A stretch of 64,000 bases of DNA, taken from positions 62,001-126,000 of the forward strand of contig JAFGUG010000031.1 in the NCBI GenBank assembly GCA_016938655.1. Reading direction: 5' to 3'. How positions within the stretch are numbered: the first letter of the stretch is position 1; the number at the start of each line of letters is the position of its first letter. The position numbers were made by a program, and so were the translations under genes. The notes under the pieces were generated by a model that had not been told where the DNA came from, did not search any database, and worked only from the letters and a program-made list of their open reading frames with translations. Positions 2,730-63,780 of the stretch are shown in pieces. Origin of the DNA: Thiotrichales bacterium (GTDB taxonomy: Bacteria > Pseudomonadota > Gammaproteobacteria > Thiomicrospirales > Thiomicrospiraceae).

Positions 2730-2741
2730 AGCAGGCCTGTT
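2730..2741. repeat. Iterated palindrome copy (intergenic)
   Basis: AGCAGGCCTGTT, 17 nt after the prenyltransferase stop and 16 nt before cysM. The right arm continues as CACT, as in the extended intergenic form. Confidence 0.8.
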
Positions 2742-2757
2742 CACTACAATACCAAGC

Positions 2758-3660
2758 ATGGAAAATCGTATGCACACTCAAACACTCATGGATTTTGTTG
2801 GCAACACCCCCTTGGTGAAGCTGCAAAGAATCGTCAATCCCAACACCAATAGCGTTGTCTTAGCCAAGTTAGAGGGTAATAACCCGGCTGGATCGGTTAA
2901 AGATAGACCTGCCATTAATATGATTAAACAGGCACAGTTGCGGGGTGATATTAAACCCGGTGATACGCTGATTGAAGCGACCAGTGGTAATACCGGTATT
3001 GCACTGGCGATGGCTGCGGCGTTAATGGGTTACAAAATGAAACTGATTATGCCGGCTAACAGCAGTATGGAGCGTAAAGCCTCCATGCGCGCTTACGGTG
3101 CAGAGTTGATTGATGTCTCTAAAGAAGATGGCATGGAGGGCGCACGTGATTTTGCCGACCGAATGCAGGCAGAAGGCCAAGGTATTGTCTTAGACCAGTT
3201 TGCCAACCCTGATAACCCACTTGCGCATTATCAATCAACGGGCCCAGAAATTTGGCGAGACACTCAAGGCAAAGTCACGCATTTTGTCAGTTCTATGGGT
3301 ACAACTGGAACGATTATGGGGACCTCGATGTATCTAAAAGAACAGAACCCCAATGTGCAAATTGTCGGCGTTCAACCGGAAGATGGCGCTTCTATCCCGG
3401 GTATTCGCCGCTGGCCAGCCAAGTACATGCCGAAAATTTACCAAGCGACCCGTGTCGATCGAATTATTGATGTTTCTCAAGCTGAAGCTGAGCAGACCAT
3501 GCGAGCGTTGGCAGTTCAAGAGGGCGTGTTTGGGGGAGTCTCTTCCGGTGGGGCGTTAGCAGCCGCTTTAAAAGTAGCTGAAGAGACCGAAAACGCCGTG
3601 ATTGTAACCATTGTATGTGACCGTGGTGATCGTTATTTATCAACCGGCGTATACGGCTAA
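2758..3660 (+). CDS. cysM: Cysteine synthase B
   Basis: PLP enzyme making L-cysteine (or S-sulfocysteine) from O-acetylserine and sulfide or thiosulfate in the cytoplasm. The Schiff-base lysine is K48 in 'GSVKDR', and the phosphate-binding loop 'TSGNTG' follows. The C-terminal half has 'GGVSSGGAL' for cofactor phosphate binding. At 300 residues it is CysM-length, shorter than CysK, and 'QPEDGASIPGIRRW' is CysM-like. An in-frame ATG at 2770 is an equally good start. Thiosulfate use by CysM would suit a sulfur oxidiser, but that is inference. Confidence 0.93.
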   Translation: MENRMHTQTLMDFVGNTPLVKLQRIVNPNTNSVVLAKLEGNNPAGSVKDRPAINMIKQAQLRGDIKPGDTLIEATSGNTGIALAMAAALMGYKMKLIMPANSSMERKASMRAYGAELIDVSKEDGMEGARDFADRMQAEGQGIVLDQFANPDNPLAHYQSTGPEIWRDTQGKVTHFVSSMGTTGTIMGTSMYLKEQNPNVQIVGVQPEDGASIPGIRRWPAKYMPKIYQATRVDRIIDVSQAEAEQTMRALAVQEGVFGGVSSGGALAAALKVAEETENAVIVTIVCDRGDRYLSTGVYG

Positions 3661-3695
3661 GCGCGCCAACACGACTAAGGAACTGAGTAATTTCA

Positions 3696-5534: not shown

Positions 5535-5546
5535 AGCAGGCCTTCT
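5535..5546. repeat. Iterated palindrome, one-sided variant (intergenic)
   Basis: AGCAGGCCTTCT followed by CACTTT. It differs from the consensus by one base in the right half. It starts 32 nt after the tolC stop and ends 4 nt before the next start codon, so its AGG lies where a Shine-Dalgarno would be. Confidence 0.65.
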
Positions 5547-5550
5547 CACT

Positions 5551-7122
5551 TTGCCTTTAATTGAACGTTCATCTAAAACCGCTAACTCTGCTCATGCCGC
5601 TTCGCTGTCGCGTAGGCAGTTTCTTAAAACCAGCGTTGCGCTTAGCAGTGCTGGTTTTTTAGTAAGCGCATTATCCGCTTGTGCGCCGCAGTCAAATCCG
5701 AATGAGATTCGTGTTGGTATTACGGCTCGCCCCAGAATGCTCGACCCGCGCAAAGCCACCGACGCACTTTCCAGTCGAGTTAATCGGCTACTCTATCGTC
5801 AGCTGATTGATTTTGATGAACAGTTCAAGCCCAAACCCGACCTGGCTGATTGGCAGCAACTCAGTCCATTACACTATCGTTTTACCTTGCAAACCGATTC
5901 GGTGTTTCATAATGGTCAACGCCTTACCTCTGCGGATGTGGTGGCAACCTATAAAAGTGTGCTCGACCCGGATTTTGGGTCGGCGCACAGCGGTTCTTTA
6001 AAGGGGATTGCAAGTATTGAAGCAGTTGGTCAATATCAAGTTGATTTTATTCTGAAAGAACCCGACCCCTTATTTGTTGGGCGTTTGGTGATTGGTATTT
6101 TGCCAAAGTCATTAATTGATTCGGAACATAAGTTTCAAGAAAGTCCCATTGGTTCGGGGGCGTGTCAGTTTGTGTTGATGAACGAGCAAAAGTTGGTGTT
6201 AAAACGTCCAGATGGCGTTGAACTGGTTTTTATCCCCGTAAAAGACGCTACGGTGCGCGTGCTTAAATTACAGAAGGGCGAACTGGATATGGTGCAAAAT
6301 GATTTGTCACCCGAATTGGTTCACTATTGTCAGCAGCAACCGGAATTAATCGTTGATTGGCGTGCCGGCACCAATTTTGGTTACGTTGGGTTTAATTTTG
6401 AAGACCCGCTTTTATCGCAGTTAGCCGTGCGTGAAGCGATTGCTATGGGCATAAACCGCCAAGCGATTATTGATGCCATGTTTGATGGCCATGCCCGATT
6501 AGCTGGGGGATTGTTAGTGCCCGAGCATTGGAGTGGCGTGCCAGAAATTAATGGCTTTGAATACAATCCAAACAAAGCCAAAGCGTTATTAAAACAAGCC
6601 AAGATTCCAGCAGGCCTGCTTAATTCGGATGGGTTGTTGGAATTTAGTTATAAAACCTCTAATGACCCAACGCGGATTCGCTTGGCGACCATCTATCAAT
6701 CTCAGCTTAAAAAGATTGGGATTCACTTGAATGTACAAAGTTACGATTGGGGAACCTTTTACAACGATATTAAAAAAGGCCGATTCCAAATGTACAGTTT
6801 GGCGTGGGTGGGGGTGAAAAGTCCGGATATCTTTCAGTATGTGTTCGATAGCGAGGCGATTCCACCAAACGGTGCCAATCGTGGGCGTTACCGAGATGCT
6901 AAGGCTGATGAACTCATTCAACAAGCGTTAGAACAAACCGATTTAGACGAGCAGGCAAAAACCTACAGAGCCTTGCAAATTCATTTGCAAAAGACACTCG
7001 CAGCCATTCCGCTTTGGTACGAAGACCAGTACACCGTTAGCCGAACAGGCATGAGTGGTTATCAACTGTTTAATGATGGCCGCTTAGATGGATTATTGAA
7101 TGTCATTAAAGTCGGTTCTTAG
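5551..7122 (+). CDS. Peptide-type ABC transporter substrate-binding lipoprotein (Tat)
   Basis: 523-residue SBP_bac_5 (DppA/OppA family) solute-binding protein. The N-terminus has a twin-arginine motif 'SRRQFLKTS' followed by a hydrophobic stretch and a lipobox 'LSAC', so it should be Tat-exported and lipidated. The family signature region is 'DALSSRVNRLLYRQLIDFDE', and the C-terminal lobe includes 'PLWYEDQYTV'. It would capture peptides or nickel/opine-type ligands in the periplasm for the two permeases downstream. The only usable start I see is TTG 5551; no ATG occurs before the RR motif. A variant palindrome lies just upstream. Confidence 0.88.
   Translation: MPLIERSSKTANSAHAASLSRRQFLKTSVALSSAGFLVSALSACAPQSNPNEIRVGITARPRMLDPRKATDALSSRVNRLLYRQLIDFDEQFKPKPDLADWQQLSPLHYRFTLQTDSVFHNGQRLTSADVVATYKSVLDPDFGSAHSGSLKGIASIEAVGQYQVDFILKEPDPLFVGRLVIGILPKSLIDSEHKFQESPIGSGACQFVLMNEQKLVLKRPDGVELVFIPVKDATVRVLKLQKGELDMVQNDLSPELVHYCQQQPELIVDWRAGTNFGYVGFNFEDPLLSQLAVREAIAMGINRQAIIDAMFDGHARLAGGLLVPEHWSGVPEINGFEYNPNKAKALLKQAKIPAGLLNSDGLLEFSYKTSNDPTRIRLATIYQSQLKKIGIHLNVQSYDWGTFYNDIKKGRFQMYSLAWVGVKSPDIFQYVFDSEAIPPNGANRGRYRDAKADELIQQALEQTDLDEQAKTYRALQIHLQKTLAAIPLWYEDQYTVSRTGMSGYQLFNDGRLDGLLNVIKVGS
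6609..6620. repeat. Iterated palindrome copy (inside CDS)
   Basis: Perfect AGCAGGCCTGCT inside the binding-protein gene, read as Ala-Gly-Leu-Leu. Confidence 0.8.
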
Positions 7123-7146: not shown

Positions 7147-7158
7147 AGCAGGCCTGCT
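7147..7158. repeat. Iterated palindrome copy with long arms (intergenic)
   Basis: Perfect AGCAGGCCTGCT, 24 nt after the binding-protein stop. Flanks AAAGTG and GACTTTT (7141-7165) extend the symmetry with one mismatch, giving the best hairpin-like copy in the window. Confidence 0.85.
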
Positions 7159-8696: not shown

Positions 8697-9503
8697 ATGT
8701 TAAAATACCTGAGTTACTCGATTGTGATTATCTGGGCGTTGATGGCGTTTGCCGGCTTTTTTATTGATGAAAGTGCCAACGAAGTTTTTCTAAATTCGTT
8801 TTTAACGCCACCGAGTAGCGATGCGATTTTAGGGCGTGATGAGTTGGGTCGCCCTGTTCTAGAGCGGGTGATCCTTGGCGCACAAACCTCTTTATTAGTG
8901 GCGTTGGGGGTGGTGTTTTTCTCAGCGATTATTGGCACAACGATTGGCGTTTACAGCGGCTATATGGGCGGTTGGACAGATCGAGTGATCACTAAAATCA
9001 TTGATGTCTTTTTAGCATTTCCGGGTTTGTTGTTGGCCATTGCTCTGGCGGCCATCTTAGGGCCGGGCATTGAAAACGTAGTATTTGCGTTGGTGGTGGT
9101 GGGCTGGGTGGGCTATGCGCGTTTAGCACGAGCGCAAACTTTAAGCTTGCGTCACCGAGAGCACATATTTGCTGCGCGTGCGCTAGGGGTGGCCACGCCG
9201 CTGATTCTATTTAGACATGTGCTACCGCTCATCTTAGCGCCCTTAGGTGTTGAAGCCACCTTTGGGATTGCCGGAGCGGTGATCTCTGAAGCAGGCCTGT
9301 CGTTTTTAGGCTTGGGGGTTCAACCGCCGGAAGCCTCTTGGGGAAGCATGATTAAAGAGGGGACGCGTTATCTATTGGTGGCACCGCATTTGGTCTTAGC
9401 CCCTGGGATTGGTTTGATGTTGGTGGTGCTGGCGGTCAATTTAATCGGTGACCAATGGCGCGACCATTTGGATGTACGTTCTCGGAGTAACAACCGAAAA
9501 TAA
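8697..9503 (+). CDS. ABC transporter permease, DppC/OppC type
   Basis: 268-residue permease partner of the preceding gene, starting directly after its stop. Features are 'LGRDELGRPVLERVI' after the first helix, an EAA loop 'EHIFAARALGVATP' and the DppC hallmark 'EAGLSFLGLGVQPPEASWG'. With DppB it forms the membrane channel of a peptide importer. No ATP-binding subunits follow; the next gene is convergent. The ATPases must be encoded elsewhere or borrowed from another importer. An iterated palindrome copy encodes the Ala-Gly-Leu of the hallmark motif. Confidence 0.92.
   Translation: MLKYLSYSIVIIWALMAFAGFFIDESANEVFLNSFLTPPSSDAILGRDELGRPVLERVILGAQTSLLVALGVVFFSAIIGTTIGVYSGYMGGWTDRVITKIIDVFLAFPGLLLAIALAAILGPGIENVVFALVVVGWVGYARLARAQTLSLRHREHIFAARALGVATPLILFRHVLPLILAPLGVEATFGIAGAVISEAGLSFLGLGVQPPEASWGSMIKEGTRYLLVAPHLVLAPGIGLMLVVLAVNLIGDQWRDHLDVRSRSNNRK
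9290..9301. repeat. Iterated palindrome copy (inside CDS)
   Basis: AGCAGGCCTGTC in the DppC-type gene, read as Ala-Gly-Leu within its conserved motif. Confidence 0.75.
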
Positions 9504-11214: not shown

Positions 11215-12320
11215 TGGACTGGTTGTTACAAACTTGGGCTGAACTGGTGGTGTTATCCGGTGAACAGGTTTGGATGCTTATTGTGGGTACCATCTTAACG
11301 GTAACGTTTGTGGTGGATGTTGTGCAGCGTTTCTTTTTACGCAAACTGCATGACCATTTGGCAAAACGTGGCAAGGTCTGGTTAGACAGTTTTGTGGATG
11401 CGGCGCGTTCGCCAGCCTCTTTCTTTATCTGGGTAAACGGAACGGTCTTGGCGGTCATCACCGTTATGAACAACTTTGGTGTCTATTCAGATTTAGTGCC
11501 TTATATCCAATCGTTTAAATCCACGATTCTGACGTTATCGTTTGGTTGGTATGTGATTCGATTAGTCCAGCGTATGGAAGGGCACTTAAAACTCTATGCC
11601 CGCAGTGACGACCGTTTAGACGAAGTGACGGTGGAAGCGCTGTCTAAAATCATTAAACTGATTGCGTTTATCTTAACCACTTTGTTCTTCTTAAACGCCT
11701 TTGGTGTGAGTTTAACAGGCCTGCTGGCATTTGGTGGTATGGGCGGTATCGCGGTTGGTTTTGCGGCCAAAGACCTCTTAGGGAATGTTTTTGGTGGTTT
11801 GATGTTATACATGGATAAACCCTTTACCGTTGGTGAATGGATTCGTTCGCCGGATAAGGAGTTAGAAGGCACGGTCGAGAAAATTGGTTGGCGTATGACC
11901 ATGGTGCGTACCTTTGATAAACGCCCGTTGTACATACCAAATGGCATTTTTTCAAATATCTCGATTGAGAACCCGTCGCGTATGACCAATCGCCGAATTA
12001 AAGAGACGGTGGGGATTCGTTATGCGGATGTCAAACAGATGCACAATATTACACAAGGCGTCAAGGCGATGTTGCGAGCGCATCCTGAGATCGACCAAGA
12101 TCAAACGATGATTGTGAACTTCAACAGTTTTGGTCCTTCGTCTTTGGATTTCTTTATCTACACCTTCACCAAAACCACTGAGTGGATTCGATATCATGAG
12201 ATTAAAGAAGATGTATTACTCAAAGTCGCTGGGGTAATTGAAGAGCACGGCGCAGAAATTGCCTTTCCATCACGCAGTATTTACATTGAGTCGGGTGAGT
12301 TTGATAAAAGTGTGAACTAG
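11214..12320 (+). CDS. MscS-family mechanosensitive channel
   Basis: 368-residue inner-membrane channel that would open under osmotic downshock. It has three or four N-terminal helices, and the pore-lining helix and following domain are very clear: 'GGMGGIAVGFAAKDLLGN' then 'FGGLMLYMDKPFTVGEWI'. The soluble beta domain follows ('GWRMTMVRTFDKRPLYIPNG'). It is longer than E. coli MscS and closer to YbdG/YnaI-like members. ATG overlaps the nagZ stop; AGGAG at 11201-11205 is its ribosome site. A strong hairpin terminator follows. Confidence 0.9.
   Translation: MDWLLQTWAELVVLSGEQVWMLIVGTILTVTFVVDVVQRFFLRKLHDHLAKRGKVWLDSFVDAARSPASFFIWVNGTVLAVITVMNNFGVYSDLVPYIQSFKSTILTLSFGWYVIRLVQRMEGHLKLYARSDDRLDEVTVEALSKIIKLIAFILTTLFFLNAFGVSLTGLLAFGGMGGIAVGFAAKDLLGNVFGGLMLYMDKPFTVGEWIRSPDKELEGTVEKIGWRMTMVRTFDKRPLYIPNGIFSNISIENPSRMTNRRIKETVGIRYADVKQMHNITQGVKAMLRAHPEIDQDQTMIVNFNSFGPSSLDFFIYTFTKTTEWIRYHEIKEDVLLKVAGVIEEHGAEIAFPSRSIYIESGEFDKSVN
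11714..11725. repeat. Iterated palindrome copy (inside CDS)
   Basis: AACAGGCCTGCT in the MscS gene, read as Thr-Gly-Leu-Leu just before the pore helix. Confidence 0.7.
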
Positions 12321-13097: not shown

Positions 13098-13109
13098 AGC
13101 AGGCCTGCT
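13098..13109. repeat. Iterated palindrome copy (intergenic)
   Basis: Perfect AGCAGGCCTGCT, 20 nt after the murB stop (minus strand) and 4 nt before the ATG of the START gene. Outer bases TG/GAG extend it partly. Confidence 0.8.
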
Positions 13110-14199: not shown

Positions 14200-15636
14200 A
14201 TGAGCCAATTAAAACTTTCTAAGGAAGGTTGGTCTAATCAGACCTTATTTATCTTAGCGGCTGTCGGTTCCGCGGTGGGTCTGGGGAATATTTGGAAGTT
14301 TCCTTACATTACGGGTGAAAATGGCGGTGGGGCATTTGTACTGGTTTACCTGGCCTGTGTACTCTTGATTGGTATTCCGGTTCTGTTATCAGAAATTGCA
14401 TTAGGACGTGCCGGTAAAGCAAACCCTGTTCAGGCTATGGCTAATTTAGCTCACGAAAATAAGGCCAGTCGGCTATGGTTTTTATTAGGATTAAATGGCG
14501 TGCTGGCCGGTGCGCTGATTTTATCGTTCTACACCGTCATTGCAGGGTGGGGCGTTGCGTATTTTTTTGAAAGTTTGCTTGGTACCTTTAATGGCATTGG
14601 CAAAGAGGCGGTTGGCGAACATTTTTCAACCATGTTAGCCAGTCCAATGCAGCTGTTATTTTGGCATACGGTTGTTTCAATAATTACGGTTTACATTGTC
14701 TCTAAAGGGGTTAAAAGTGGTTTAGAGCGCGCCATAAGCTTTATGATGCCGGGGCTGCTGTTAATTCTACTTGTGCTTTTGGGGTATGCCACCACCACTG
14801 GGGCGTTTGGTCAGAGTTTCTCTTTCTTGTTCTCGCCGGACTTCTCTAAACTAAGTTGGCAAGCGGTTCTGACTGCGATGGGTCACGCCTTTTTTACCTT
14901 AAGTATCGGTTTAGGGACCATGATGGTCTATGGCTCGTATCTTTCCAATAAATACTCCATTGTCAAAGCGGGCGTTTGGATTGCCTTTGCCGATACCGCT
15001 GTGGCATTGTTAGCAGGCCTGATTATTTTCTCGATTGTGTTTGCTAATGGGTTAGAGCCTGGTTCAGGCCCTGGTTTACTGTTTCAAACCTTACCGATTG
15101 CTTTTGGTCAAATGACTGGTGGCTGGTTCTTTGGAACGCTGTTTTTTGCATTGGTGATTATGGCGGCACTCAGTTCATCTATTTCGTTAATTGAGCCAGC
15201 CGTCAGTTGGTTTGATCAAAACTGGGGAATCAAACGTAAAAAAGCAGCATGGATTTTGGGTTCCCTGATTTGGTTTATTGGTATCGGCACGGTGCTTTCG
15301 TTTAATGAATGGTCGGATGTACACTTTTTGGGCGATCGAACTTTTTTTGACAGTGTTGATTTTATTACCGCTAATATTATGTTGCCATTGGGTGGTTTGT
15401 TGATGGCCGTTTTTGTGGCTTGGGTTGTGAGTCCTAAAGATCGCGCAGAATACATCGACTTGAACAGTCGTTTAATGAATTGGTTTGTTTTTGACTTAAA
15501 GTGGATTGCACCTGTCGCGATTTTAACGGTGTTTGCGACTAATTTAGTGGGTGCCGACAGCGTGTTATTGATGATCTTAGTGTCACTGGCTGTTTATGGG
15601 GTTTACGTGTGGAATGCTATGCGTAAAAACGGATGA
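14200..15636 (+). CDS. Sodium-dependent transporter, NSS/SNF family
   Basis: 478-residue member of the neurotransmitter:sodium symporter family. The first helix has the hallmark 'AVGLGNIWKFPYITGENGGG' that binds Na+ and substrate. About eleven helices are predicted, as in bacterial homologues. Substrates of bacterial relatives are amino acids such as leucine, tryptophan or tyrosine; the specificity here is unknown. 'AAAGGAAG' in front of the ATG is a good ribosome site. It ends at a perfect bidirectional terminator shared with the convergent cyclic-nucleotide-binding gene. Confidence 0.92.
   Translation: MSQLKLSKEGWSNQTLFILAAVGSAVGLGNIWKFPYITGENGGGAFVLVYLACVLLIGIPVLLSEIALGRAGKANPVQAMANLAHENKASRLWFLLGLNGVLAGALILSFYTVIAGWGVAYFFESLLGTFNGIGKEAVGEHFSTMLASPMQLLFWHTVVSIITVYIVSKGVKSGLERAISFMMPGLLLILLVLLGYATTTGAFGQSFSFLFSPDFSKLSWQAVLTAMGHAFFTLSIGLGTMMVYGSYLSNKYSIVKAGVWIAFADTAVALLAGLIIFSIVFANGLEPGSGPGLLFQTLPIAFGQMTGGWFFGTLFFALVIMAALSSSISLIEPAVSWFDQNWGIKRKKAAWILGSLIWFIGIGTVLSFNEWSDVHFLGDRTFFDSVDFITANIMLPLGGLLMAVFVAWVVSPKDRAEYIDLNSRLMNWFVFDLKWIAPVAILTVFATNLVGADSVLLMILVSLAVYGVYVWNAMRKNG
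15012..15023. repeat. Iterated palindrome copy (inside CDS)
   Basis: AGCAGGCCTGAT inside the NSS transporter gene, read as Ala-Gly-Leu-Ile. Confidence 0.7.
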
Positions 15637-16646: not shown

Positions 16647-17780
16647 TTACTTGGTTAAAAGGTTGACTAAGGTTTGGTAGTAAATCTCGGTCAACTGGTT
16701 CAGGTCGGTCACGCTGACACGTTCATCAACTTGATGGATGGTTGCATTTAATGGACCTAACTCGATGACTTGTGCACCGGTTGGTGCAATAAAGCGGCCG
16801 TCTGAAGTGCCACCACCGGTTGATAAAACCGGTTCGTATCCCATCACCTTATTGGTTGCGATTTTAACGGCCTGAATCAGCTCGCCCTGCGCAGGAGTAA
16901 TAAATGGCAGGCCTGATAAGTTCCATTCAAGATCATAGTCTAGGTTGTGGTGATCTAATACCGCGTGAACACTCTCCATTAAAGATTCAGGCGTGTGTTC
17001 AGTTGAAAAACGGAAATTAAATAACAAGTTTACGTTACCCGGTGTAACGTTCGTTGCGCCTGTTCCGGCGTTAATATTTGAGATTTGGAATGAGGTAGGC
17101 GGGAAGTATTCGTTGCCGTGATCCCATTTCATGTGTACCAGTTGTTCTAAAGCCGGTGCCAGTGTATGAATCGGGTTTTCAGACAGTTCAGGGTAAGCAA
17201 TGTGCCCTTGAATGCCTTTTATGGTTAGGTTGCCATTTAAAGAACCACGACGACCATTTTTGATAGAGTCCCCTAATTTTTTACTACTAGACGGCTCACC
17301 CACCAAACAATAATCGATTTTTTCATTTCGATTTTCTAAGGTTTCAATGACCTTGACGGTACCGTTGATGGCTGGGCCTTCTTCATCGCTGGTAATCAAA
17401 TAACCAATTGAGCCTTTATGATCAGGGTAGGTTTCAACAAACCGTTTACTGGCTACCATAAAACAGGCAATGGAACTTTTCATGTCTGCACTGCCACGAC
17501 CGTACATCATGTCGCCATCAATGTGCGCAGAGAAAGGTGGGAACGTCCAAGATTCAGCAGGACCAGTAGGTACAACATCTGTGTGACCAGCAAACACAAT
17601 AAATGGACTGCTATCACCTTTACGAGCCCACACATTATCAACTTCGCCAAACGGGATGTTCTCAATCTTGAATCCTAATGGACTGAGGTAGTCACTAATA
17701 AGCGTTTGACAACCTTTATCATCTGGCGTGACGGAGTCAATTTGAATAAGTTTTTGGGCTAAGTCGATGGTTTCGCTCAT
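16647..17780 (-). CDS. dapE: Succinyl-diaminopimelate desuccinylase
   Basis: Di-zinc M20 peptidase-family enzyme, 377 residues, that removes succinate from N-succinyl-LL-diaminopimelate in lysine and murein precursor synthesis. Metal ligands and catalytic residues are in 'FAGHTDVVPTG', 'GRGSADMKSS', 'TSDEEGPA' (catalytic Glu-Glu) and the C-terminal 'NATIHQVDE'. It is in a cluster with dapD, which catalyses the step two earlier; the aminotransferase DapC is not here. The small ArsC/YffB gene lies between dapE and dapD, the usual gammaproteobacterial neighbour. Confidence 0.96.
   Translation of the reverse strand: MSETIDLAQKLIQIDSVTPDDKGCQTLISDYLSPLGFKIENIPFGEVDNVWARKGDSSPFIVFAGHTDVVPTGPAESWTFPPFSAHIDGDMMYGRGSADMKSSIACFMVASKRFVETYPDHKGSIGYLITSDEEGPAINGTVKVIETLENRNEKIDYCLVGEPSSSKKLGDSIKNGRRGSLNGNLTIKGIQGHIAYPELSENPIHTLAPALEQLVHMKWDHGNEYFPPTSFQISNINAGTGATNVTPGNVNLLFNFRFSTEHTPESLMESVHAVLDHHNLDYDLEWNLSGLPFITPAQGELIQAVKIATNKVMGYEPVLSTGGGTSDGRFIAPTGAQVIELGPLNATIHQVDERVSVTDLNQLTEIYYQTLVNLLTK
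16906..16917. repeat. Iterated palindrome copy (inside CDS)
   Basis: GGCAGGCCTGAT inside dapE; on the coding strand it reads Ser-Gly-Leu-Pro. Confidence 0.7.
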
Positions 17781-19898: not shown

Positions 19899-19910
19899 AG
19901 CAGGCCTGCT
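19899..19910. repeat. Iterated palindrome copy (convergent gap)
   Basis: Perfect AGCAGGCCTGCT with AAAAGTG before and TAGTTT after, 42 nt from the VOC stop and 38 nt from the glnD stop on the other strand. A related AGGCCT follows at 19921. Confidence 0.85.
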
Positions 19911-24473: not shown

Positions 24474-24485
24474 AGCAGGCCTGTT
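24474..24485. repeat. Iterated palindrome copy (intergenic)
   Basis: AGCAGGCCTGTT followed by CACTTT, 15 nt after the rpsB stop in the rpsB-tsf gap. This is where many bacteria have a partial terminator between the two genes. Confidence 0.8.
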
Positions 24486-41970: not shown

Positions 41971-42816
41971 ATGTTAAAGAATGTAAGTTGGTTAAAAGCA
42001 GCAGGCCTGTTGATTTTGATGCTGAGTGTGACACAAGGTGTTAAAGCCAGTGATTTTGTTAAAGGTGAAACGGTGTTTGTGGCCTTTCCAGCCACCAATA
42101 TTAAAGATGACGCCTTTATTATTGGTAAAGTTACCGCCATAACTGACAAGGGTGATTACCAAGTTGCCGTTTTAGATTATGTTGAAGGTCACGATTATGG
42201 ATCATCTTGTGTGCCCATCAGTAAATATGAAACTACCGATCAAGGCATGGGAAATGGCTGGGAAATCTGGACTGACACCACTAAATTAGATACTCAGCAA
42301 CTTGAATATGTCGTGCCCAAAGAAAAGGTACTTAAGTTGGCATACGGTAAGTTATTTTTTGTTGAACGAAATAACGTGTTTATTGTGTTTGGGCGTTGGA
42401 AATCGGATGCCCCTGTTTTAACGTTAGACCGACTGGATCAAGCAATCAGTCAGGCAAAGTCAGCAGGCCTGTCAGAAATGCAACCGGCATTTGAATTAGC
42501 CAAGTTGCATCGCCAAAGTTATTACGGTGACTTTGAACGTCCTTTAATGCCTTATGAAAGCATTGCGCCGCTTAATAAAGCGTTAAAAACGGTTCTAGAG
42601 TATTTAGCCGCGGATCCAAGATTAGAAGCCTTATGGCGTGCAAACCCACGAGATTGGAAAGCGATCAGCGAAACGACAAAACATTATTTCTTAGTGGAAG
42701 CGATTGATAAACTGGTAAGGGATGCCAAAAATGCAATTTATGAGGAAGGAGTAGAGCAGGCCGATGCAACCAGTTTGGCGGAATTGAAAGAGCGGTTAAG
42801 TATCTTAAAACGCTAA
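41971..42816 (+). CDS. Exported protein of unknown function
   Basis: 281 residues with a signal peptide ('WLKAAGLLILMLSVTQGVKA-SD'). The first half is beta-rich and resembles a small SH3/Tudor-like barrel: 'DFVKGETVFVAFPATNIKDD', 'IIGKVTAITDKGDYQVAVLD'. The second half is helical, with 'LDRLDQAISQAKSAGLSEM' and a coiled C-terminus 'SLAELKERLSILKR'. I do not recognise the family. It follows the universal stress gene and ends at a strong terminator. Two palindromic repeat copies lie within it, one in the signal peptide. Confidence 0.7.
   Translation: MLKNVSWLKAAGLLILMLSVTQGVKASDFVKGETVFVAFPATNIKDDAFIIGKVTAITDKGDYQVAVLDYVEGHDYGSSCVPISKYETTDQGMGNGWEIWTDTTKLDTQQLEYVVPKEKVLKLAYGKLFFVERNNVFIVFGRWKSDAPVLTLDRLDQAISQAKSAGLSEMQPAFELAKLHRQSYYGDFERPLMPYESIAPLNKALKTVLEYLAADPRLEALWRANPRDWKAISETTKHYFLVEAIDKLVRDAKNAIYEEGVEQADATSLAELKERLSILKR
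42000..42011. repeat. Iterated palindrome copy (inside CDS)
   Basis: AGCAGGCCTGTT in the signal peptide of the unknown exported protein, read as Ala-Gly-Leu-Leu. Confidence 0.75.
42462..42473. repeat. Iterated palindrome copy (inside CDS)
   Basis: AGCAGGCCTGTC in the same gene, read as Ala-Gly-Leu-Ser; two copies in one gene. Confidence 0.75.
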
Positions 42817-45929: not shown

Positions 45930-45941
45930 AGCAGGCCTGCT
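45930..45941. repeat. Iterated palindrome copy (divergent intergenic)
   Basis: Perfect AGCAGGCCTGCT with TACTTTAAA on the right. It is between the divergent DUF481 and accA genes and is the only intergenic copy not close to a stop codon. Confidence 0.8.
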
Positions 45942-47139: not shown

Positions 47140-48567
47140 GTGCAACTTTCTTACCCAACGCTATTAACTGAATTTGAGCAGTTTAAAAAACAAACTGAGC
47201 ATCGGTCTTTTCTGGTCGCGTTTAGTGGTGGGTTGGACTCTACGGTACTATTGCACCTTCTTGCACACGATGCTGAACTGCATGCACGTACCCGAGCGTT
47301 ATATGTTGATCATCAGATACAGTCTGAATCAGCTGTTTGGGGGTTGCACTGTGAGAAGGTTTGCCACAATTGGGCCATTCCATTTCAGTCTATTCAAGTC
47401 ACTCTGGGTACTGAGCATCGGCAAGGGTTAGAGGCTCGAGCTCGAAAAGCGCGTTATTCGGCACTTTATAAGGCCTTGCTACCCGATACTTTATTGTTGA
47501 CGGCACATCATCAGCGCGATCAGGTTGAAACCTTTCTTTTGAATTTGACTCGAGGCAGTGGGGTAGCGGGGTTAGCAGCCATGCCATATCAAAAGTCCAT
47601 GACTGTTCAGAACCACAAAAAAACGGATCATATCCGTCCGCTCTTAAGGGTGCCTTACCAAGAGTTGGTAGCCTATGCCGATCACTTTATGCTTGATTGG
47701 GTCGAGGACCCCAGTAATTTAGATCATCGTTATGCTCGTAATTTGGTGCGCAATCAACTGCTTCCTCAATTTGAACAGGCCTGCCCAAATATTCAATCAC
47801 AAATTGCCAAATCGGCTGAGTATCAAGCTGAAGCATTCGGCTTACTCGATCGACTGGCTGAACAAGATTTAAAACGAGGAGTATTTAATGTTCACTGCAT
47901 TACGCTATCAAGTTACGCAGAACTGGATTGGCCGAGCTTGAAGAATGTCTTGCGATACTGGGGCAAGACGCTGTTGAATGTGCAATTCAGCGCTGACCAT
48001 TTAGAATGGATTAAACTTTATGGCTGTGATCAGTGTTCAGCCACAGCAAGTCTAAAAATGCGTTCGGGTTCATTAAGGTTTTATCGAGATAATCTCTACT
48101 ATGTCGTTGATTCTTATAATAACTACTCATTTAACCTGTCTGAATTTAAAGCTCAGTTAAGCGATCAGTCAAAAGGCGCTAGTCGTTTGGAAGAGCACTT
48201 TGAAACACGCCAGTTTGATTTGACATTACCGCATTTATGGGTGCACGAATATAAAGATCGCTTAACCGTTAGGAACCTTAGAGAGGGCGAGCCTTTTAAC
48301 CGACAGAAAGCTAAAAAATGGTTTCAAGAGCAGGGGGTTCCAACTTGGCAAAGAGGATTTTGGCCGGTGCTTTTTTTGGATGAGACCCCTTTGTTTTTAT
48401 GTGGAGCTGATATTAAAAAAGGCTGGCTAAGCCCTGAATTAGTAGACCGCTATCAGGCACAACTCATGCATAATGATGCTGGTTCAGAGAAAGTCAGTTA
48501 CCGTTTTACTGAGCATGATGTTGTGAGTTTTTTTCAAGACGAACACGTCAAAATTAAATCGATTTGA
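47140..48567 (+). CDS. tilS: tRNA(Ile)-lysidine synthetase
   Basis: 475-residue N-type ATPase that converts C34 of tRNA-Ile(CAU) to lysidine. The PP-loop 'AFSGGLDSTVLLHL' is intact, with 'LLTAHHQRDQVETFLLNLTR' and 'LLRVPYQELVAYA'. C-terminal TilS domains follow ('KDRLTVRNLREGEPFN', 'KKWFQEQGVPTWQR'). Start GTG 47140 with AGG 7 nt before. Slightly longer than E. coli TilS (432). Standard position between accA and pyrG. Confidence 0.94.
   Translation: MQLSYPTLLTEFEQFKKQTEHRSFLVAFSGGLDSTVLLHLLAHDAELHARTRALYVDHQIQSESAVWGLHCEKVCHNWAIPFQSIQVTLGTEHRQGLEARARKARYSALYKALLPDTLLLTAHHQRDQVETFLLNLTRGSGVAGLAAMPYQKSMTVQNHKKTDHIRPLLRVPYQELVAYADHFMLDWVEDPSNLDHRYARNLVRNQLLPQFEQACPNIQSQIAKSAEYQAEAFGLLDRLAEQDLKRGVFNVHCITLSSYAELDWPSLKNVLRYWGKTLLNVQFSADHLEWIKLYGCDQCSATASLKMRSGSLRFYRDNLYYVVDSYNNYSFNLSEFKAQLSDQSKGASRLEEHFETRQFDLTLPHLWVHEYKDRLTVRNLREGEPFNRQKAKKWFQEQGVPTWQRGFWPVLFLDETPLFLCGADIKKGWLSPELVDRYQAQLMHNDAGSEKVSYRFTEHDVVSFFQDEHVKIKSI
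47774..47785. repeat. Iterated palindrome copy (inside CDS)
   Basis: AACAGGCCTGCC inside tilS, read in the second frame as Gln-Ala-Cys-Pro. Confidence 0.7.
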
Positions 48568-50356: not shown

Positions 50357-51193
50357 ATGAAACTATGTCACTTTGAAGCGGGAATTGACCAGCCGTTATT
50401 TTTAATCGCTGGGCCTTGTGTTATTGAGTCAGAACAACTTGCGCTCGATACCGCAGGTTTGTTAAAAGAGATAACAGATGAATTAGGCATTCCATTCATC
50501 TACAAATCCTCTTATGACAAAGCAAATCGAACTTCAACCAGCAGTTTTCGTGGTTTAGGTGTGGATGAAGGGCTACGAATTTTACAAAAAGTAAAAGACG
50601 AAATTGGTGTTCCGGTTTTAACGGATGTTCATGAAGACACGCCTTTGGATGAAGTCGCTTCTGTGGTTGATGTCATGCAAACGCCTGCGTTTTTAGTTCG
50701 TCAAACCAATTTTATTCAAAATGTCTGTCGTCAAGGTATTCCCGTTAATATTAAAAAGGGACAGTTTCAAGCGCCTTGGGATATGGACCAAGTGGTCGCC
50801 AAGGCGCGTGAAGTGGGCAATGAAAATATCATGGTTTGTGATCGCGGGACTTCATTTGGTTACAACACCTTAGTTTCAGACATGCGCGGTTTGCCAAGAA
50901 TGCGTCAAACAGGCTGTCCAGTGGTATTTGATGCCACCCACTCGGTTCAGCAACCGGGTGGTCAAGGTGCAACCTCAGGCGGGCAACGTGAAATGGTACC
51001 CGTTTTAGCACGGGCTGCAGTCGCCGCTGGTATTTCAGGCCTGTTTATGGAGACACATCCCGATCCTGCCAATGCCTTAAGTGATGGACCAAACATGTGG
51101 CCAATCCATAACTTAAAACCGTTATTACAAACTTTAAAACGATTAGACGACCTGGTTAAGTCAGAAGGCTTTATTGAAGATTCAATTAAATAA
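50357..51193 (+). CDS. kdsA: 3-deoxy-D-manno-octulosonate 8-phosphate synthase
   Basis: 278-residue TIM-barrel enzyme condensing arabinose 5-phosphate and PEP to KDO-8-P for the LPS inner core. '[10 protein letters not shown]', '[20 protein letters not shown]', '[16 protein letters not shown]' and '[14 protein letters not shown]' are family blocks. Asn in 'DKANRTS' and no metal Cys in the first strand suggest the metal-independent class. Directly adjacent to pyrG; eno follows after about 100 nt. Confidence 0.97.
51034..51045. repeat. Iterated palindrome copy (inside CDS)
   Basis: TTCAGGCCTGTT inside kdsA, read as Ser-Gly-Leu-Phe. Confidence 0.65.
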
Positions 51194-52992: not shown

Positions 52993-53004
52993 AGCAGGCC
53001 TGCT
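52993..53004. repeat. Iterated palindrome copy (convergent gap)
   Basis: Perfect AGCAGGCCTGCT with TTATTTT on the right; 17 nt after the ftsB stop and 50 nt from the Smr-gene stop on the other strand. Confidence 0.82.
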
Positions 53005-55775: not shown

Positions 55776-56618
55776 ATGATCATGAACGGCTTTATGACTC
55801 AATCCAATATTGGCCGTGCCTTAAAGAGAGGCATGGAGGTCATATTTGTCATTATGTTGATGTTGGTGGTGAGTGGATGCAGCAATCATTCCGTGAAACG
55901 CTCTTATCTTGAACCTTCGACCGATTTAGAACCGATTAAAAACAGTGCCTCGGATCACTTAAATAAAAACGCTTCTGAAAAATCATTAAAACAGTCATCT
56001 AAGCAGGCCTGCTCAAATTCTTATAAGGTGGTGTCAGGCGACAGTTTAAGCCTGATTTCAGCCAAGTGTAACATTAAACTTTCCGCCTTAGCGAAAGCGA
56101 ATAACTTAAAAAAACCTTACCTTATTCGTATTGGTCAACGACTAACGATTCCTACCTTAACAGCCAGTACAGTCAGACAAGCTGGATCGATATCTAAAAC
56201 GCCTGTTCACCGTTTGCCGAGTTCGACTGAAGTGCGAAAGAGCTATCAGTTAGCTAACTGGCAATGGCCGATGGAACAAAGATTAGAGCACCGATTTATT
56301 CGAGATGGCGCAGGCATTACGGGCTTAGAGATTAATGCGTTTCCGGGTATGGCGGTCATGGCTGTGGCGGACGGTGAAGTGGTCTATGTTGGCAGTGGTA
56401 TTATGCAATTTGGGTTAATGGTGATGTTGAAGCATGCCAGTGGTCATATGAGTGTTTATGCGCATAATAGCCAAGTTTTTGTGAAAGAGGGGCAAGTCGT
56501 AAAAGTCGGGCAGAAGATTGCCAATTCCGGTGCAACCGGCTTAACAGATCGTCCAAAGGTCTATGTGGAGGCACGATACAAAGGTAAGAAGGTAGATATA
56601 AAAAAGCTATTTGATTAG
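55776..56618 (+). CDS. nlpD: NlpD-like murein hydrolase activator lipoprotein
   Basis: 280 residues: lipoprotein signal with lipobox 'VVSGC' (Cys35), a LysM murein-binding domain at about 84-127 ('YKVVSGDSLSLISAKCNIKL'), a linker and a C-terminal M23 fold. The M23 zinc ligands are lost: the usual HxGxD is 'GLEI' and the usual HLHFE is 'KVYVEAR'. Like E. coli NlpD, it should be a non-catalytic activator of AmiC at the septum. Cys78 and Cys93 near LysM are unusual. rpoS, normally next, is absent. A palindrome copy is in the linker and another follows the gene. Confidence 0.9.
   Translation: MIMNGFMTQSNIGRALKRGMEVIFVIMLMLVVSGCSNHSVKRSYLEPSTDLEPIKNSASDHLNKNASEKSLKQSSKQACSNSYKVVSGDSLSLISAKCNIKLSALAKANNLKKPYLIRIGQRLTIPTLTASTVRQAGSISKTPVHRLPSSTEVRKSYQLANWQWPMEQRLEHRFIRDGAGITGLEINAFPGMAVMAVADGEVVYVGSGIMQFGLMVMLKHASGHMSVYAHNSQVFVKEGQVVKVGQKIANSGATGLTDRPKVYVEARYKGKKVDIKKLFD
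56002..56013. repeat. Iterated palindrome copy (inside CDS)
   Basis: Perfect AGCAGGCCTGCT inside nlpD just before LysM, read in the second frame as Gln-Ala-Cys. It supplies the cysteine at residue 79 or thereabouts. Confidence 0.8.
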
Positions 56619-56648: not shown

Positions 56649-56660
56649 GACAGGCCTGCT
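56649..56660. repeat. Iterated palindrome copy (convergent gap)
   Basis: GACAGGCCTGCT, 30 nt after the nlpD stop and 28 nt from the stop of the minus-strand gene. CAGACA (56646-56651) and TGTCTG (56666-56671) can pair around it. Confidence 0.75.
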
Positions 56661-61582: not shown

Positions 61583-61613
61583 ATCCTATTTTTTTAGTTT
61601 ATTGAGACCGATT

Positions 61614-62645
61614 ATGAGCAAAGCCATTACCTTATGGATTCCAGACTTTTTAAATAAGCAGCGCATTATTGAATCTGAGCAGGCCTGGTTGGATTTGTCT
61701 CTTCCTGCTCTGCGCACGCTTTTAAAAAAGGCAGATCTATTTCCTGTTCATTCAAAAAATAATCAACCCGTTGACGACTTTTACGCAACGGCCAGTAATT
61801 TGTTTCATCAAAACCAAACGTTACCGGTTGCCGCTACCATGGCGAAACACTTTCTTGAAGCATTTGATGATGGTTTGTTTTGGATGAAAATTGACCCTGT
61901 GCAGATGGTGCCCGATCGAGATACGTTGGTGTTAATTCCAGGTGCCGATTTGCAAATTTCTGAACAAGAGGCTTTGGCATTAATAGACGCTTTTAATCAA
62001 CACTTTCAACAAGATAAGGTGGTTATTGAGTACGGTTCGCCAACCGATTGGTTTTTAAATATTAAACAAGTTGTGGATATTAAAACGACCTCTTTAAATG
62101 AGGCAAGCTATCAGCAACTTCATGAAAAATACCCAACTGGGCATGCCGCTCAATATTGGCGTCAGCTGTTAAACGAAGCCTCTATGTTGTTTTATACCCA
62201 TCCGGTCAATGAGAAACGTCGTGAAGCGGGATTACCTGAAATAAATGGCGTTTGGCTTTGGGGAGAGGGGCGTTTAAAAGACGTCAATCTATACCCCAGA
62301 GCGACGGCAAACATAGCGTCTGAAAACTCGTATTTAGCCGGCATGGCTAAATTAACTCGTGCGCAAAGCAGTGCGTTTCCAGAAAGTTTGCAGGCCTGCT
62401 TAGATTCTGATCAAACGCATCATCTGTTGATGCCTGAATTTATTAATCTGAGTTTAGACAAGTTGACACAAGAGGCGTGGATTGAATCAGTTAACTGGTT
62501 GGAGTCCGACTGGATGGCGCCGATCCTAACCGCTTTAAAACAGAAAAAAATTCACTCTCTATTATTAGAACTGGGTGATGGCCATCGTTATCACATCGAA
62601 CCGAAACACCTTAATCGATTTTGGCGTTTTAAAAATCGAATCTAA
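61614..62645 (+). CDS. RpfE-like phosphoglycerate-mutase-family protein (tentative)
   Basis: 343 residues, soluble, no signal peptide. The motif 'SMLFYTHPVNEKRREAGLPE' then 'INGVWLWGEGRL' resembles proteins annotated as RpfE/phosphoglycerate mutase-like in Xanthomonas and other proteobacteria. I recall no tested activity for them, and none of the alkaline-phosphatase-superfamily metal motifs is complete here. ATG 61614 has GAG 7 nt before; an in-frame TTG at 61602 is less likely. Two palindromic repeat copies lie inside the gene. Confidence 0.55.
   Translation: MSKAITLWIPDFLNKQRIIESEQAWLDLSLPALRTLLKKADLFPVHSKNNQPVDDFYATASNLFHQNQTLPVAATMAKHFLEAFDDGLFWMKIDPVQMVPDRDTLVLIPGADLQISEQEALALIDAFNQHFQQDKVVIEYGSPTDWFLNIKQVVDIKTTSLNEASYQQLHEKYPTGHAAQYWRQLLNEASMLFYTHPVNEKRREAGLPEINGVWLWGEGRLKDVNLYPRATANIASENSYLAGMAKLTRAQSSAFPESLQACLDSDQTHHLLMPEFINLSLDKLTQEAWIESVNWLESDWMAPILTALKQKKIHSLLLELGDGHRYHIEPKHLNRFWRFKNRI
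61678..61689. repeat. Iterated palindrome copy (inside CDS)
   Basis: AGCAGGCCTGGT, read in the second frame as Gln-Ala-Trp. Confidence 0.65.
62389..62400. repeat. Iterated palindrome copy (inside CDS)
   Basis: TGCAGGCCTGCT followed by TAGATT, read in the second frame as Gln-Ala-Cys-Leu. Confidence 0.75.
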
Positions 62646-62985
62646 TAAATTAGGCTACCGTTCATTTTAGCTTTTAATTTATAAACTCCTATCGCCTCCC
62701 TTTTCTGATCCGCAGTAAGACACTAGTCTTTTGTTTTATCTGCGTATTGCTGCCTGCTTATCACAATAAAGACGTTTAAAGAACTCTGTTTGTTTTTAAT
62801 TGTTAATAAATGTAAGTCATTTGTTAATTAATGTAAGGGCGTGCTTTTAATTGTTCAATAATGGTGCACAATTAAATAATAAAACTCTTATATTTAAATA
62901 TAAGTTATTGTAATTAAATGATTAATATTTTAATGGCACCTAATAAGCTAAGGTTGTATTAATAGTAACTTATTGGAGCATTAAC
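62646..62985. promoter_or_regulatory. AT-rich control region upstream of the ABC operon
   Basis: 340 bp with no gene. It holds two near-identical 17-mers, TTGTTAATAAATGTAAG (62800-62816) and TTGTTAATTAATGTAAG (62821-62837), exactly 21 bp apart, and a weaker third, TTGTTCAATAATGG, at 62851. A perfect 18-bp palindrome CTTATATTTAAATATAAG lies at 62887-62904. GGAG at 62973-62976 serves the ATPase gene. The repeats look like stacked sites for a regulator, which I cannot name. Confidence 0.55.
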
Positions 62986-63780
62986 ATGAACGCATCAAAT
63001 ATTTGGGTCTCAGATTTAACTCATTATTACAATCGAAAGCAACTTTCGCCTACTTTAGAAGACATTAATCTTAATATCCCAAAAGGGCAGTTAACTGCTC
63101 TTATTGGTCGCAGTGGATGCGGTAAATCAACCCTTTTGCAAATGTTAGCAGGCCTGCTTGTTCCTACTGAAGGTGTGATTCGTATTAATGGCCACACGGT
63201 TTTAAAACCCAATGCTAAATGGAACATGATGTTTCAAAAACCTTCTTTATACCCTTGGATGACTGTTCGTGAAAACGCTGCGCTCTCGCTTGTGTTTGCC
63301 GGTACTTACAAAGGAAACGAGTCACGTGTCGAAGATTTACTGGATATGGTTGGCCTGAGTGAGCATAAAGACAAAAATGTCCAACAACTCTCTGGTGGTC
63401 AGCAACAACGTGTTGCGCTAGCCCGTTCCCTTGCTGCCGAACCAGAGGTTCTATTGTTAGATGAACCTTTCTCAGCGCTGGATGCTTTTACGCGTTCTGC
63501 TTTGCAAACTGAAGTGGCTCAAATCTGTCACGACCAAGGTATCACGATGGTATTGGTGACCCATGACATTGAAGAGGCGAACGCCATGGCTGACAAGGTC
63601 ATCATTATGAATCACAACCCAGGGCGAATTGTCGGCTCTTTAGAGGTTCCAGTTAGCTATCCGCGTGATCGAAATGCAGATGACTTCGTTGCCTTAAAGG
63701 AAGAGTTATTCGCTGAATTCGAGAAGATTGATCAAGCCAAACAAAAAGAGTTGCAAGAGATTAAAGATCTTGCCTCATAA
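62986..63780 (+). CDS. ABC transporter ATP-binding protein, nitrate/sulfonate/bicarbonate type
   Basis: 264-residue ATPase of the NrtD/SsuB/TauB/CmpD group. Walker A 'GRSGCGKST' begins at residue 41, the signature is 'QQLSGGQQQRVALARSLA', Walker B 'EVLLLDEPFSALDAFTRS' and the H-loop 'VLVTHDIEEANAMAD'. 'WMTVRENAALSLVFAG' and the C-terminal 'VPVSYPRDRNADDF' are typical of this group. It is the first gene of its operon, an unusual order, and is followed by a twin-arginine protein, so transport of a small anion (nitrate, bicarbonate, cyanate or sulfonate) is possible but not proven. Confidence 0.88.
   Translation: MNASNIWVSDLTHYYNRKQLSPTLEDINLNIPKGQLTALIGRSGCGKSTLLQMLAGLLVPTEGVIRINGHTVLKPNAKWNMMFQKPSLYPWMTVRENAALSLVFAGTYKGNESRVEDLLDMVGLSEHKDKNVQQLSGGQQQRVALARSLAAEPEVLLLDEPFSALDAFTRSALQTEVAQICHDQGITMVLVTHDIEEANAMADKVIIMNHNPGRIVGSLEVPVSYPRDRNADDFVALKEELFAEFEKIDQAKQKELQEIKDLAS
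63147..63158. repeat. Iterated palindrome copy (inside CDS)
   Basis: Perfect AGCAGGCCTGCT in the ATPase gene just after Walker A, read as Ala-Gly-Leu-Leu. Confidence 0.8.

Follow-up and report, generated by a model that had tools for sequence, protein, structure and literature searches.

A mostly palindromic motif repeated throughout genomes of the Thiomicrospira/Hydrogenovibrio group is a candidate DNA-uptake-type signal

ABUNDANCE OF THE MOTIF

A short, mostly palindromic motif with the core CAGGCCTG recurs throughout the genome of a sulfur-oxidizing Thiotrichales bacterium and in many of its relatives, and it may be a DNA-uptake-type signal of self-recognition, a reading that we hold to be about evenly balanced on the sequence comparisons presented here. 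If the motif is an uptake signal, the family would be the third known to have one. The window (the whole stretch of 64 kb that was analyzed) contains 25 exact copies of the core, whereas 100 dinucleotide shuffles gave 0.43 on average and never more than 3; the whole 12-mer AGCAGGCCTGCT is present at 9 of the 25, and sites with up to two mismatches number 27, compared with 1.56 expected. The original prediction had counted the same 25 cores and nine 12-mers, together with two one-sided variants (AGCAGGCCTTCT at 5535 and AGCAGGCCTCGC at 31136), and had put the chance level at about one copy or less per window; our recount and the shuffles agree with these figures, and the coordinates are correct.

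It had also taken the repeat for a genome-wide signal, and this is borne out by the whole genome (2,933,684 bases), in which the core occurs 1173 times, about once per 2.5 kb, and the 12-mer 411 times, compared with 2 and 0 for the reversed controls. In the 384 kb of this source genome (G000) used for the site-level analyses, 182 cores were found, whereas Markov models of orders 1 to 4 predict 3.8, 4.2, 4.4, and 14.0. Orders 5 and 6 predict 89 and 161, because words that long already hold most of the motif. The two outcomes that would have spoken against the claim, a count near Markov expectation and an enrichment limited to the window, were looked for and did not occur. Literature searches yielded neither a published description of the motif nor a named family with a matching consensus, in agreement with the original prediction on the latter point.

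The sites in the window are as follows; none carries a strand assignment.

2730..2741, AGCAGGCCTGTT site, intergenic
5535..5546, degenerate one-sided variant AGCAGGCCTTCT, between genes
6609..6620, full 12-mer within an extracellular solute-binding-protein gene (SBP_bac_5)
7147..7158, full 12-mer, intergenic, context AAAGTGAGCAGGCCTGCTGACTTT
9290..9301, AGCAGGCCTGTC site within a transporter permease gene
11714..11725, AACAGGCCTGCT site within a mechanosensitive-channel gene
13098..13109, full 12-mer, intergenic
15012..15023, AGCAGGCCTGAT site within an SNF-family symporter gene
16906..16917, GGCAGGCCTGAT site within an M20 peptidase gene
19899..19910, full 12-mer, intergenic, convergent genes on either side
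21096..21107, AACAGGCCTGCC site within a glnD-like gene
24474..24485, AGCAGGCCTGTT site in the rpsB-tsf spacer; spacer occupied in 12/12 high-count species compared and in G020
28987..28998, AGCAGGCCTGGT site in rseP; codons CAG GCC TGG the same in 12/12 high-count species compared
36247..36258, GGCAGGCCTGCC site in the lpxB/rnhB overlap; common to G005 only
36881..36892, full 12-mer in the rnhB-cheV spacer; spacer occupied in 9/12 high-count species compared
42000..42011, AGCAGGCCTGTT site within ORF 41971-42816; assigned in 0 others of 21 genomes compared
42462..42473, AGCAGGCCTGTC site within ORF 41971-42816; assigned in 0 others of 21 genomes compared
45930..45941, full 12-mer, intergenic, before accA; assigned in 0 others of 21 genomes compared
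47774..47785, AACAGGCCTGCC site within tilS; common to 5/12 high-count species compared
51034..51045, core CAGGCCTG (51036-51043) in the ORF after pyrG (kdsA by position); common to G027 only
52993..53004, full 12-mer after eno, convergent genes on either side; spacer occupied in 9/12 high-count species compared
56002..56013, full 12-mer within an nlpD-like gene (LysM, M23 peptidase)
56649..56660, GACAGGCCTGCT site, intergenic, convergent genes on either side; spacer occupied in 5/12 high-count species compared
61678..61689, AGCAGGCCTGGT site within ORF 61602-62645 (no Pfam match)
62389..62400, TGCAGGCCTGCT site within ORF 61602-62645 (no Pfam match)
63147..63158, full 12-mer within an ABC-transporter ATPase gene

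ARCHITECTURE OF THE SITE

The core is hard and the flanks are soft. Against 73 perfect 12-mer sites in the 384 kb (146 when counted on both strands), the outer half-site positions account for 24 and 35 one-off sites, and the four core positions for 1, 2, 0, and 0. The core in G000 is palindromic and its two flanks agree in the unsymmetrised consensus, with AG on both sides in 73 of 182 sites; the flanks agree likewise in G014, with AC on both sides in 81 of 146 sites, but AC stands on both sides in only 9 of 43 in G035. The cross-genome logos pool both strands and are uninformative on symmetry. A reading in which one side is enough was not supported: the two sides of the site matter together. 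A/T tracts lie one helical turn from the site center and are clear in G000, visible in several other genomes, and weak in G035.

DIALECTS AND REPLACEMENT WORDS IN THE FAMILY

We surveyed 62 genomes of the Thiomicrospira/Hydrogenovibrio group, the family of the source genome. At least 236 copies are present in 32 of them (236 to 1173 sites per high-count genome) and at most 74 in the other 30; all nine genomes of genus g5 have at least 840. The core is constant, and the flanks differ by lineage. One low-count relative, G023, uses a shifted palindrome, ACCGGCCGGT, with 24 copies of CCGGCCGG in 60 kb compared with 0.23 expected. Another, G020 (grouped with G005 at a split support of 0.979), uses the asymmetric word AAACTCAACAGGCCGGGT; its 10-mer ACAGGCCGGG occurs 22 times in 120 kb compared with 0.3 expected, and palindromes are few. 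Among the remaining 28 low-count species, 14 were searched over 20 to 60 kb each, and none showed a clear replacement word. The motif has been lost or altered in several lineages within one genus. Species with the motif, without it, and with an altered form are intermixed in that genus, so comparison of close relatives offers a way to look for the receptor or enzyme concerned.

Some site positions are conserved across species and two genera, and the codons at the rseP site are invariant in all 12 high-count species compared while the flanking residues change. Of the 37 sites compared, 22 occur in one genome only. In the 40-kb comparison, no shared gene or spacer could be matched to 25 cores; G018, in which gene order breaks, accounts for 12 of these.

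Three roles had been offered for the motif in the original prediction: an uptake signal, a nucleoid or segregation-protein site, and a HIP1-like palindrome protected by methylation. In the last of these, a methyltransferase or other modification enzyme would read the core, and linked repair or selection would accumulate the word. According to the available portion of the report on cyanobacterial HIP1 and alternate HIPs (Elhai 2015, PMC4390886), these are iterated palindromes with palindromic extensions, their one-off variants lie mostly at outer positions, and another palindrome substitutes for them in some relatives. The motif shares all of these properties, being a heavily iterated octamer-type palindrome that is replaced by another palindrome in G023. 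HIPs generally accompany matching methyltransferases, as the same portion of that report states, and here the motif differs: the presence of PF00145, PF01555, and PF02086 does not track motif counts in the 62 genomes, and a link to methylation through these families was rejected. The C5 methylase PF00145 was found in 24 of the 62 genomes and in 0/9 of genus g5, for all its high counts; PF01555 was found in 24 and PF02086 in 10. At E <= 0.001, none of these three families has a match in 9 of the 26 high-count genomes that are at least 99% complete (G014, G017, G021, G025, G027, G033, G312, G330, and G332), and the HIP1-like role is weakened because of this. Further differences from HIPs are the non-palindromic word of G020 and the A/T tracts, which at the distance of a full helical turn are unusual for methylase sites. 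We consider this role improbable.

ORIGIN AND DISTRIBUTION OF THE COPIES

Copies arise via substitution. Motif-free orthologous genes show no alignment gaps outside the rnhB N-terminus and two other cells: the nine coding site rows of the LpxB region, three of which contain the lpxB/rnhB overlap, comprise 131 ungapped and 32 gapped cells, and 30 of the latter are at the rnhB N-terminus. This bears on the proposal that the copies are short mobile or hairpin elements (of the REP/MITE or terminator-module type) scattered by insertion between genes, a proposal that several aspects of the distribution would suit. The density in G000 is 1.4 to 1.7 per kb between genes, compared with 0.30 to 0.31 within them; the two ORF classifications give slightly different intergenic densities because they treat open-ended ORFs differently. 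Divergent spacers are poor in copies (0/49 in G014 and 9/74 in G000, compared with about 20% of spacer bases), and convergent spacers hold more than expected. By eye, the copy in the rpsB-tsf spacer resembles, in several species, one arm of a terminator hairpin, and 57 of 1236 terminator-like hairpins in G000 contain the core, compared with 21.7 expected from its density, as judged with a crude terminator finder. The hairpin excess is also present in G014, G025, and G020, with little in G035 (6 versus 4.0), and a general preference for spacers could explain it.

However, 102 of the 182 copies in G000 lie within genes, in line with the original prediction that copies occur both in and between genes, and G035 has a higher density within genes than between them, with no intergenic enrichment. 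The origin by insertion that marks REP and MITE repeats was not found, and complementary covariation outside the core is absent at positions 1 to 7 (z <1.7), although positions 8 and 9 reach a z of about 3. The same covariation result led us to reject an RNA hairpin or terminator as the principal cause. The original prediction had excluded a mobile element, and the copies indeed do not behave like one, with their ungapped ortholog alignments and substitution origin; we regard the mobile or hairpin element as largely refuted and its probability as minimal. Carriage by phages was also rejected: viral contigs were scanned twice, with 15 stretches from one scan and 41 from the other, every stretch bearing a single site and two contigs yielding two stretches.

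Along the chromosome of G014, the one genome sampled in this way, no origin or terminus bias was observed: 20 evenly spaced stretches hold 3 to 10 sites per 20 kb on both replichores. Site spacing in G014 is somewhat more even than random (index of dispersion of 0.51), unlike that in 260 kb of G000 (CV of 1.08 compared with 0.99 +/- 0.09). These results concern a chromosomal DNA-binding protein, a nucleoid-organizing, occlusion, or repair/recombination factor that would bind, as a dimer, a symmetric site some 24 to 34 bp long, each site being kept because it is functional in place. The symmetric A/T tracts of the palindrome in G000, the joint importance of its two sides, the conserved positions, including the rseP codons, and the somewhat more even spacing in G014 are consistent with such a factor. 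The sites of matS, parS, Noc, and SlmA are likewise palindromic, protein-type, and of similar length, but they are fewer and regionally biased, whereas the motif numbers 236 to 1173 sites and is unbiased in the sampled chromosome; the regional or strand bias typical of segregation and terminus signals (matS, parS, KOPS) was not found there, and the segregation-type role is weakened because of this. The loss or alteration of the motif in several lineages of one genus and the 22 sites confined to one genome also speak against functional retention in place, and the asymmetric word of G020 is ill suited to a strictly dimeric site. A chromosomal protein of this kind is possible but, in our opinion, unlikely.

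A Chi-like recombination hot-spot signal, read by an enzyme of the RecBCD/AddAB type, would also be expected to have a short hard core, hundreds of copies, and lineage-specific forms. Known Chi words, however, are asymmetric and strand biased, whereas the motif is palindromic, with A/T tracts and intergenic enrichment in G000, and we hold this explanation to be very unlikely.

THE MOTIF AS A CANDIDATE UPTAKE SIGNAL

Of the three roles, the uptake signal gains most, because of the lineage dialects, the hard core with soft flanks, the A/T tracts, the wide spread, and the asymmetric form in one relative. We suggest that a cell-surface or periplasmic receptor of the competence machinery might prefer DNA in which CAGGCCTG is set in the flanks and A/T tracts typical of the lineage. 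Preferential uptake and recombination of relatives' DNA would then spread copies that arise by point mutation and keep existing ones, and drift of the receptor's preference between lineages could produce the dialects, the shifted palindrome ACCGGCCGGT, and the asymmetric AAACTCAACAGGCCGGGT, with loss in some lineages. We infer all three elements: the receptor reading the motif, its membership in the uptake machinery, and biased uptake as the driver of accumulation. The motif may be a label by which cells recognize their own DNA.

This interpretation is supported by the substitution origin of the copies, their scarcity in divergent spacers, and the lack of origin or terminus bias in G014. The motif is also nearly absent from one low-GC 20-kb stretch with a carboxysome/RuBisCO cluster, which holds 1 copy; depletion in recently acquired DNA would suit an uptake signal, but this is the only such region seen, and its acquisition is putative. 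ComEC, the sole competence gene tested, is present in 56 of the 62 genomes, G000 included. High-count genomes have it in 31 of 32 cases and low-count genomes in 25 of 30, so the motif is not tied to this competence gene. The Neisseria receptor model ComP_DUS (PF16732) had no match above the cut-off in the 62 genomes and one below it, in the low-count G019. The minor-pilin model GspH matched three genomes, all low-count, and PilM_2 matched 56 from both groups, with weak scores in almost every case; neither gave a receptor candidate, and a search of family stretches for a prepilin pattern produced a single hit, which is not credible as a pilin. Against the uptake signal are its palindromic word, with both sides needed together, whereas known uptake signals are non-palindromic; the missing intergenic enrichment and weak A/T tracts of G035; and the 14 low-count species that, G020 and G023 apart, showed no clear replacement word.

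We consider it plausible, as a prospect not quite even, that the family represents a third, independently evolved case of family-wide, sequence-specific uptake of self-DNA, in free-living sulfur-oxidizing autotrophs, with a palindromic signal, shifts of dialect and core, switches between symmetric and asymmetric forms, and several losses within one genus. Such a case, outside hosts and mucosa, would test selection against mere receptor bias as the origin of uptake signals, and the losses would be natural knock-outs. If the motif does not serve uptake, these autotrophs would still have a genome-wide DNA code, as yet unexplained, that is subject to selection or to biased maintenance.

COMPARISON WITH KNOWN UPTAKE SIGNALS

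The available part of the work on the USS of Pasteurellaceae (PMC7811141, PMC12616744) describes a gammaproteobacterial signal whose GC-rich core is hard and whose flanks are soft, with A/T tracts next to the core and dialects within one family, all of which the motif shares; the USS AAGTGCGGT is non-palindromic and unrelated to it in sequence, and its receptor is predicted to be PpdA/ComN. For the DUS of Neisseriaceae, the available part of Frye et al. (2013, PMC3630211) gives dialects and counts of about 940 to 3240; G000 has 1173 cores. The shared features are very high copy number, a conserved core, lineage dialects, and placement in permissive gene regions as well as between genes. As described there, the DUS is a non-palindromic 10-12-mer with the receptor ComP and a demonstrated uptake bias, whereas the motif is mostly palindromic (asymmetric in G020), with a putative role and no ComP_DUS match above the cut-off. 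The DUS also often stands in inverted pairs near terminators according to the same source; here, two copies of ACAGGCCGGG in G020 form one tight inverted pair.

Abundance of the palindrome

The original prediction held that a palindrome recurs in the window far beyond chance, and this is borne out. The core 8-mer CAGGCCTG occurs 25 times, nine of them within the full 12-mer AGCAGGCCTGCT, whereas across 100 dinucleotide shuffles it averaged 0.43 copies and never exceeded 3. The enrichment is neither restricted to the window nor close to a Markov expectation. The window comes from G000, a genome of 2,933,684 bases in 108 contigs that contains 1173 8-mers and 411 12-mers, compared with 2 and 0 of the reversed control words. 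In 384 kb of it there were 182 cores, where Markov models of orders 1 to 4 predict 3.8 to 14; models of orders 5 and 6, which come close to including the word itself, predict 89 and 161. No paper describing the motif (CAGGCCTG, GCAGGCCTGC, CCAGGCCTGG, ACCAGGCCTGGT, AGCAGGCCTGCT) was found in the open-licence literature, nor was it present among the best-matching open-licence papers on uptake sequences (searched with genus names) or iterated palindromes.

Spread among relatives

The window's family is the Thiomicrospira/Hydrogenovibrio group, with which the carboxysome and RuBisCO genes of G000 are compatible, and we infer that its genus g1 is Thiomicrorhabdus. In a sample of 274 genomes of the class, three of them from this family, the top CAGGCCTG count among the other 271 was 338 (reversed control, 20). 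Two genomes of another gammaproteobacterial family, G142 and G258, have 320 and 338 copies versus reversed controls of 34 and 20, which may reflect composition or another iterated word. The 62 family genomes split cleanly into 32 high-count genomes with 236 to 1173 cores and 30 low-count genomes with 0 to 74. High counts occur in 15 of 32 genomes of genus g1, 7 of 11 of g6, all nine of g5, the single one of g3, and none of the nine of g2, g4, and g226.

Site architecture and dialects

The consensus of 80 intergenic copies in G000 is ttttaAAAnTnAGCAGGCCTGCTnAnTTTtaaaa, with AAA/TTT blocks centered about 10.5 bp, or one helical turn, from the center; the blocks are also present, more weakly, in 102 coding copies. 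Besides 73 perfect 12-mer sites (146 on both strands), there are sites that differ by one base: the two outer half-site positions account for 24 and 35 of them, the core positions for 1, 2, 0, and 0. Complementary covariation across the core was absent at positions 1 to 7 (z < 1.7), so that maintenance of an RNA stem is improbable; at positions 8 and 9, z was about 3. The quality of one flank correlates positively with that of the other in coding copies (rho = 0.22), with no relation between the two in intergenic copies (rho = 0.04).

Across lineages the core is unchanged, and the two bases on either side are lineage-typical.

Flanking dinucleotides of the core by genome
AG: most frequent in G000
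AC: G018, G014, G030, G021, G008, G036, G311/G312, G325/G326
Mixed, AA commonest or joint commonest: G025, G005
AC, then AG: G035

The 43 sites examined in G035 (stretches L017 to L020) include nine AC/AC, nine AC/AG, and three AG/AG, as if two dialects coexisted. Two low-count genomes carry other words. G023, with 12 cores, has CCGGCCGG 24 times in 60 kb versus 0.23 expected; 22 of these copies read ACCGGCCGGT, and one lies in the rpsB-tsf spacer, where other species have CAGGCCTG. G020, with 74 cores, groups with G005 (split support, 0.979) and has an asymmetric word with the consensus AAACTCAACAGGCCGGGT, which retains the half of the palindrome with the A-tract and differs in the other half. 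In 120 kb there are 22 copies of its 10-mer ACAGGCCGGG versus 0.3 expected, two of which, 14 bp apart, are arranged as an inverted pair. Fourteen of the remaining 28 low-count species, examined over 20 to 60 kb each, showed no clear new word.

Evolution at the lpxB region

The lpxB region (40 kb, less at contig ends) was compared between G000 and 20 relatives; these 21 genomes include 12 of the 32 with high counts and 9 of the 30 with low counts. Names based on Pfam are rpsB, tsf, pyrH, rseP, bamA, lpxD, lpxB, cheV-like, dinG-like, ycaO, accA, tilS, pyrG, eno, pcm, and nlpD-like; map, frr, uppS, cdsA, skp, fabZ, lpxA, rnhB, kdsA, and others are presumed from position. High- and low-count species intermingle on a tree built from 15 concatenated proteins, and an ancestral motif would imply no fewer than five losses or alterations (G020; G003; G022-G028-G029; G313; G019-G026-G023).

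The rpsB-tsf spacer is occupied in all 12 high-count species and in G020, the rnhB-cheV and eno spacers in nine of 12 each, and two coding places in six species each; spacer places were matched at the level of the spacer, not the base. A further 22 of the 37 places were seen in a single genome, and 25 cores in the 21 genomes had no assignable place. The rseP site is present in all 12 high-count species with identical codons CAG GCC TGG, and the adjoining residues vary; the nine low-count species retain TGG with different preceding codons, the closest being CAG TCC in G020 and CAA CCT in G003. Because residues common to all 12 seldom keep a single codon in this region (2 of 65 Gln and 2 of 174 Ala columns, those of rseP counted), the identity looks like selection or biased maintenance at the DNA level. 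At coding sites in a 20-kb part, motif-less relatives align mostly without gaps (131 ungapped and 32 gapped cells, 30 of the latter at the rnhB N terminus); copies therefore originate by substitution rather than insertion.

In the stretch between tsf and pyrH (25435 to 25599 of the window; L213 to L232), many relatives share a similar hairpin of terminator type, GCCATAG...CTATGGCTTTTTT with variants, that is free of the motif. L047 (G313), L049 (G318), and L055 (G326) contain dense local repeats of other kinds, such as the CACAGCGA, AGGGGTAAGG, and GTGGGAAC families, with no relation to the motif; these are perhaps CRISPR or repeat-protein regions.

Candidate functions

The combined features resemble the known DNA uptake sequences DUS and USS more closely than any other known type considered: a hard GC core with soft flanks, A/T tracts one turn off, dialects following lineage, wide spread, accumulation by point substitution, and an asymmetric form in one relative. 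We put at about even the chance that the motif is such a signal for recognition of self-DNA. Against this stand its palindromic form, its losses in ComEC-bearing species, and the failure to find a receptor with the models searched. The competence gene ComEC is present in 31 of the 32 high-count genomes and 25 of the 30 low-count ones, but the receptor models gave no candidate in the 62 family genomes: ComP_DUS had no match above the cut-off, GspH matched three, every one low-count, and PilM_2 matched 56, nearly all weakly. The strongest rival to an uptake signal, a dimeric chromosomal protein binding the palindrome, seems unlikely to us, though less so than a HIP-like palindrome driven by modification, which we consider improbable. 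The C5 methylase family PF00145 and PF01555 each occur in 24 of the 62 genomes and PF02086 in 10; PF00145 is absent from all nine g5 genomes, each with at least 840 cores, and nine of 26 high-count genomes at least 99% complete match none of the three.

Distribution on the chromosome

Core density in G000 is 0.30/kb in genes and 1.73/kb in spacers (0.31 and 1.41 with a second gene set). Spacers are also preferred in G014, G025, and G023 and by the G020 word; G035 shows no such preference (40 coding vs 3 intergenic copies). The 74 spacer copies in G000 fall 30, 35, and 9 between convergent, codirectional, and divergent genes, which hold 20%, 59%, and 21% of spacer bases; the 49 in G014 fall 14, 35, and 0 (16%, 64%, and 20%). 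Convergent spacers are in excess in G000, and divergent ones are in deficit in both. According to PMC13020248, as many as 22% of terminators in some Pasteurellaceae species and 37% in some Neisseriaceae species contain uptake words. The coding copies in G000 are read as nCA GGC CTG (67), CAG GCC TGn (32), or AGG CCT (3).

Twenty evenly spaced stretches of the single-contig G014 chromosome held 3 to 10 cores each (index of dispersion, 0.51) with no origin/terminus trend. Over 260 kb of G000, spacing is near random (CV of 1.08 vs 0.99 ± 0.09), with one gap at 160 to 180 kb of contig 3 (one core; GC of 0.40 to 0.41). This stretch (L009, 160001 to 180000) holds a carboxysome (CsoSCA, CsoS2, BMC) and RuBisCO cluster and was possibly gained later than the rest of the genome. 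Three core pairs 25 to 26 bp apart lie between convergent genes of G000 (L005, 5087/5112 and 19527/19553; L011, 10001/10026).
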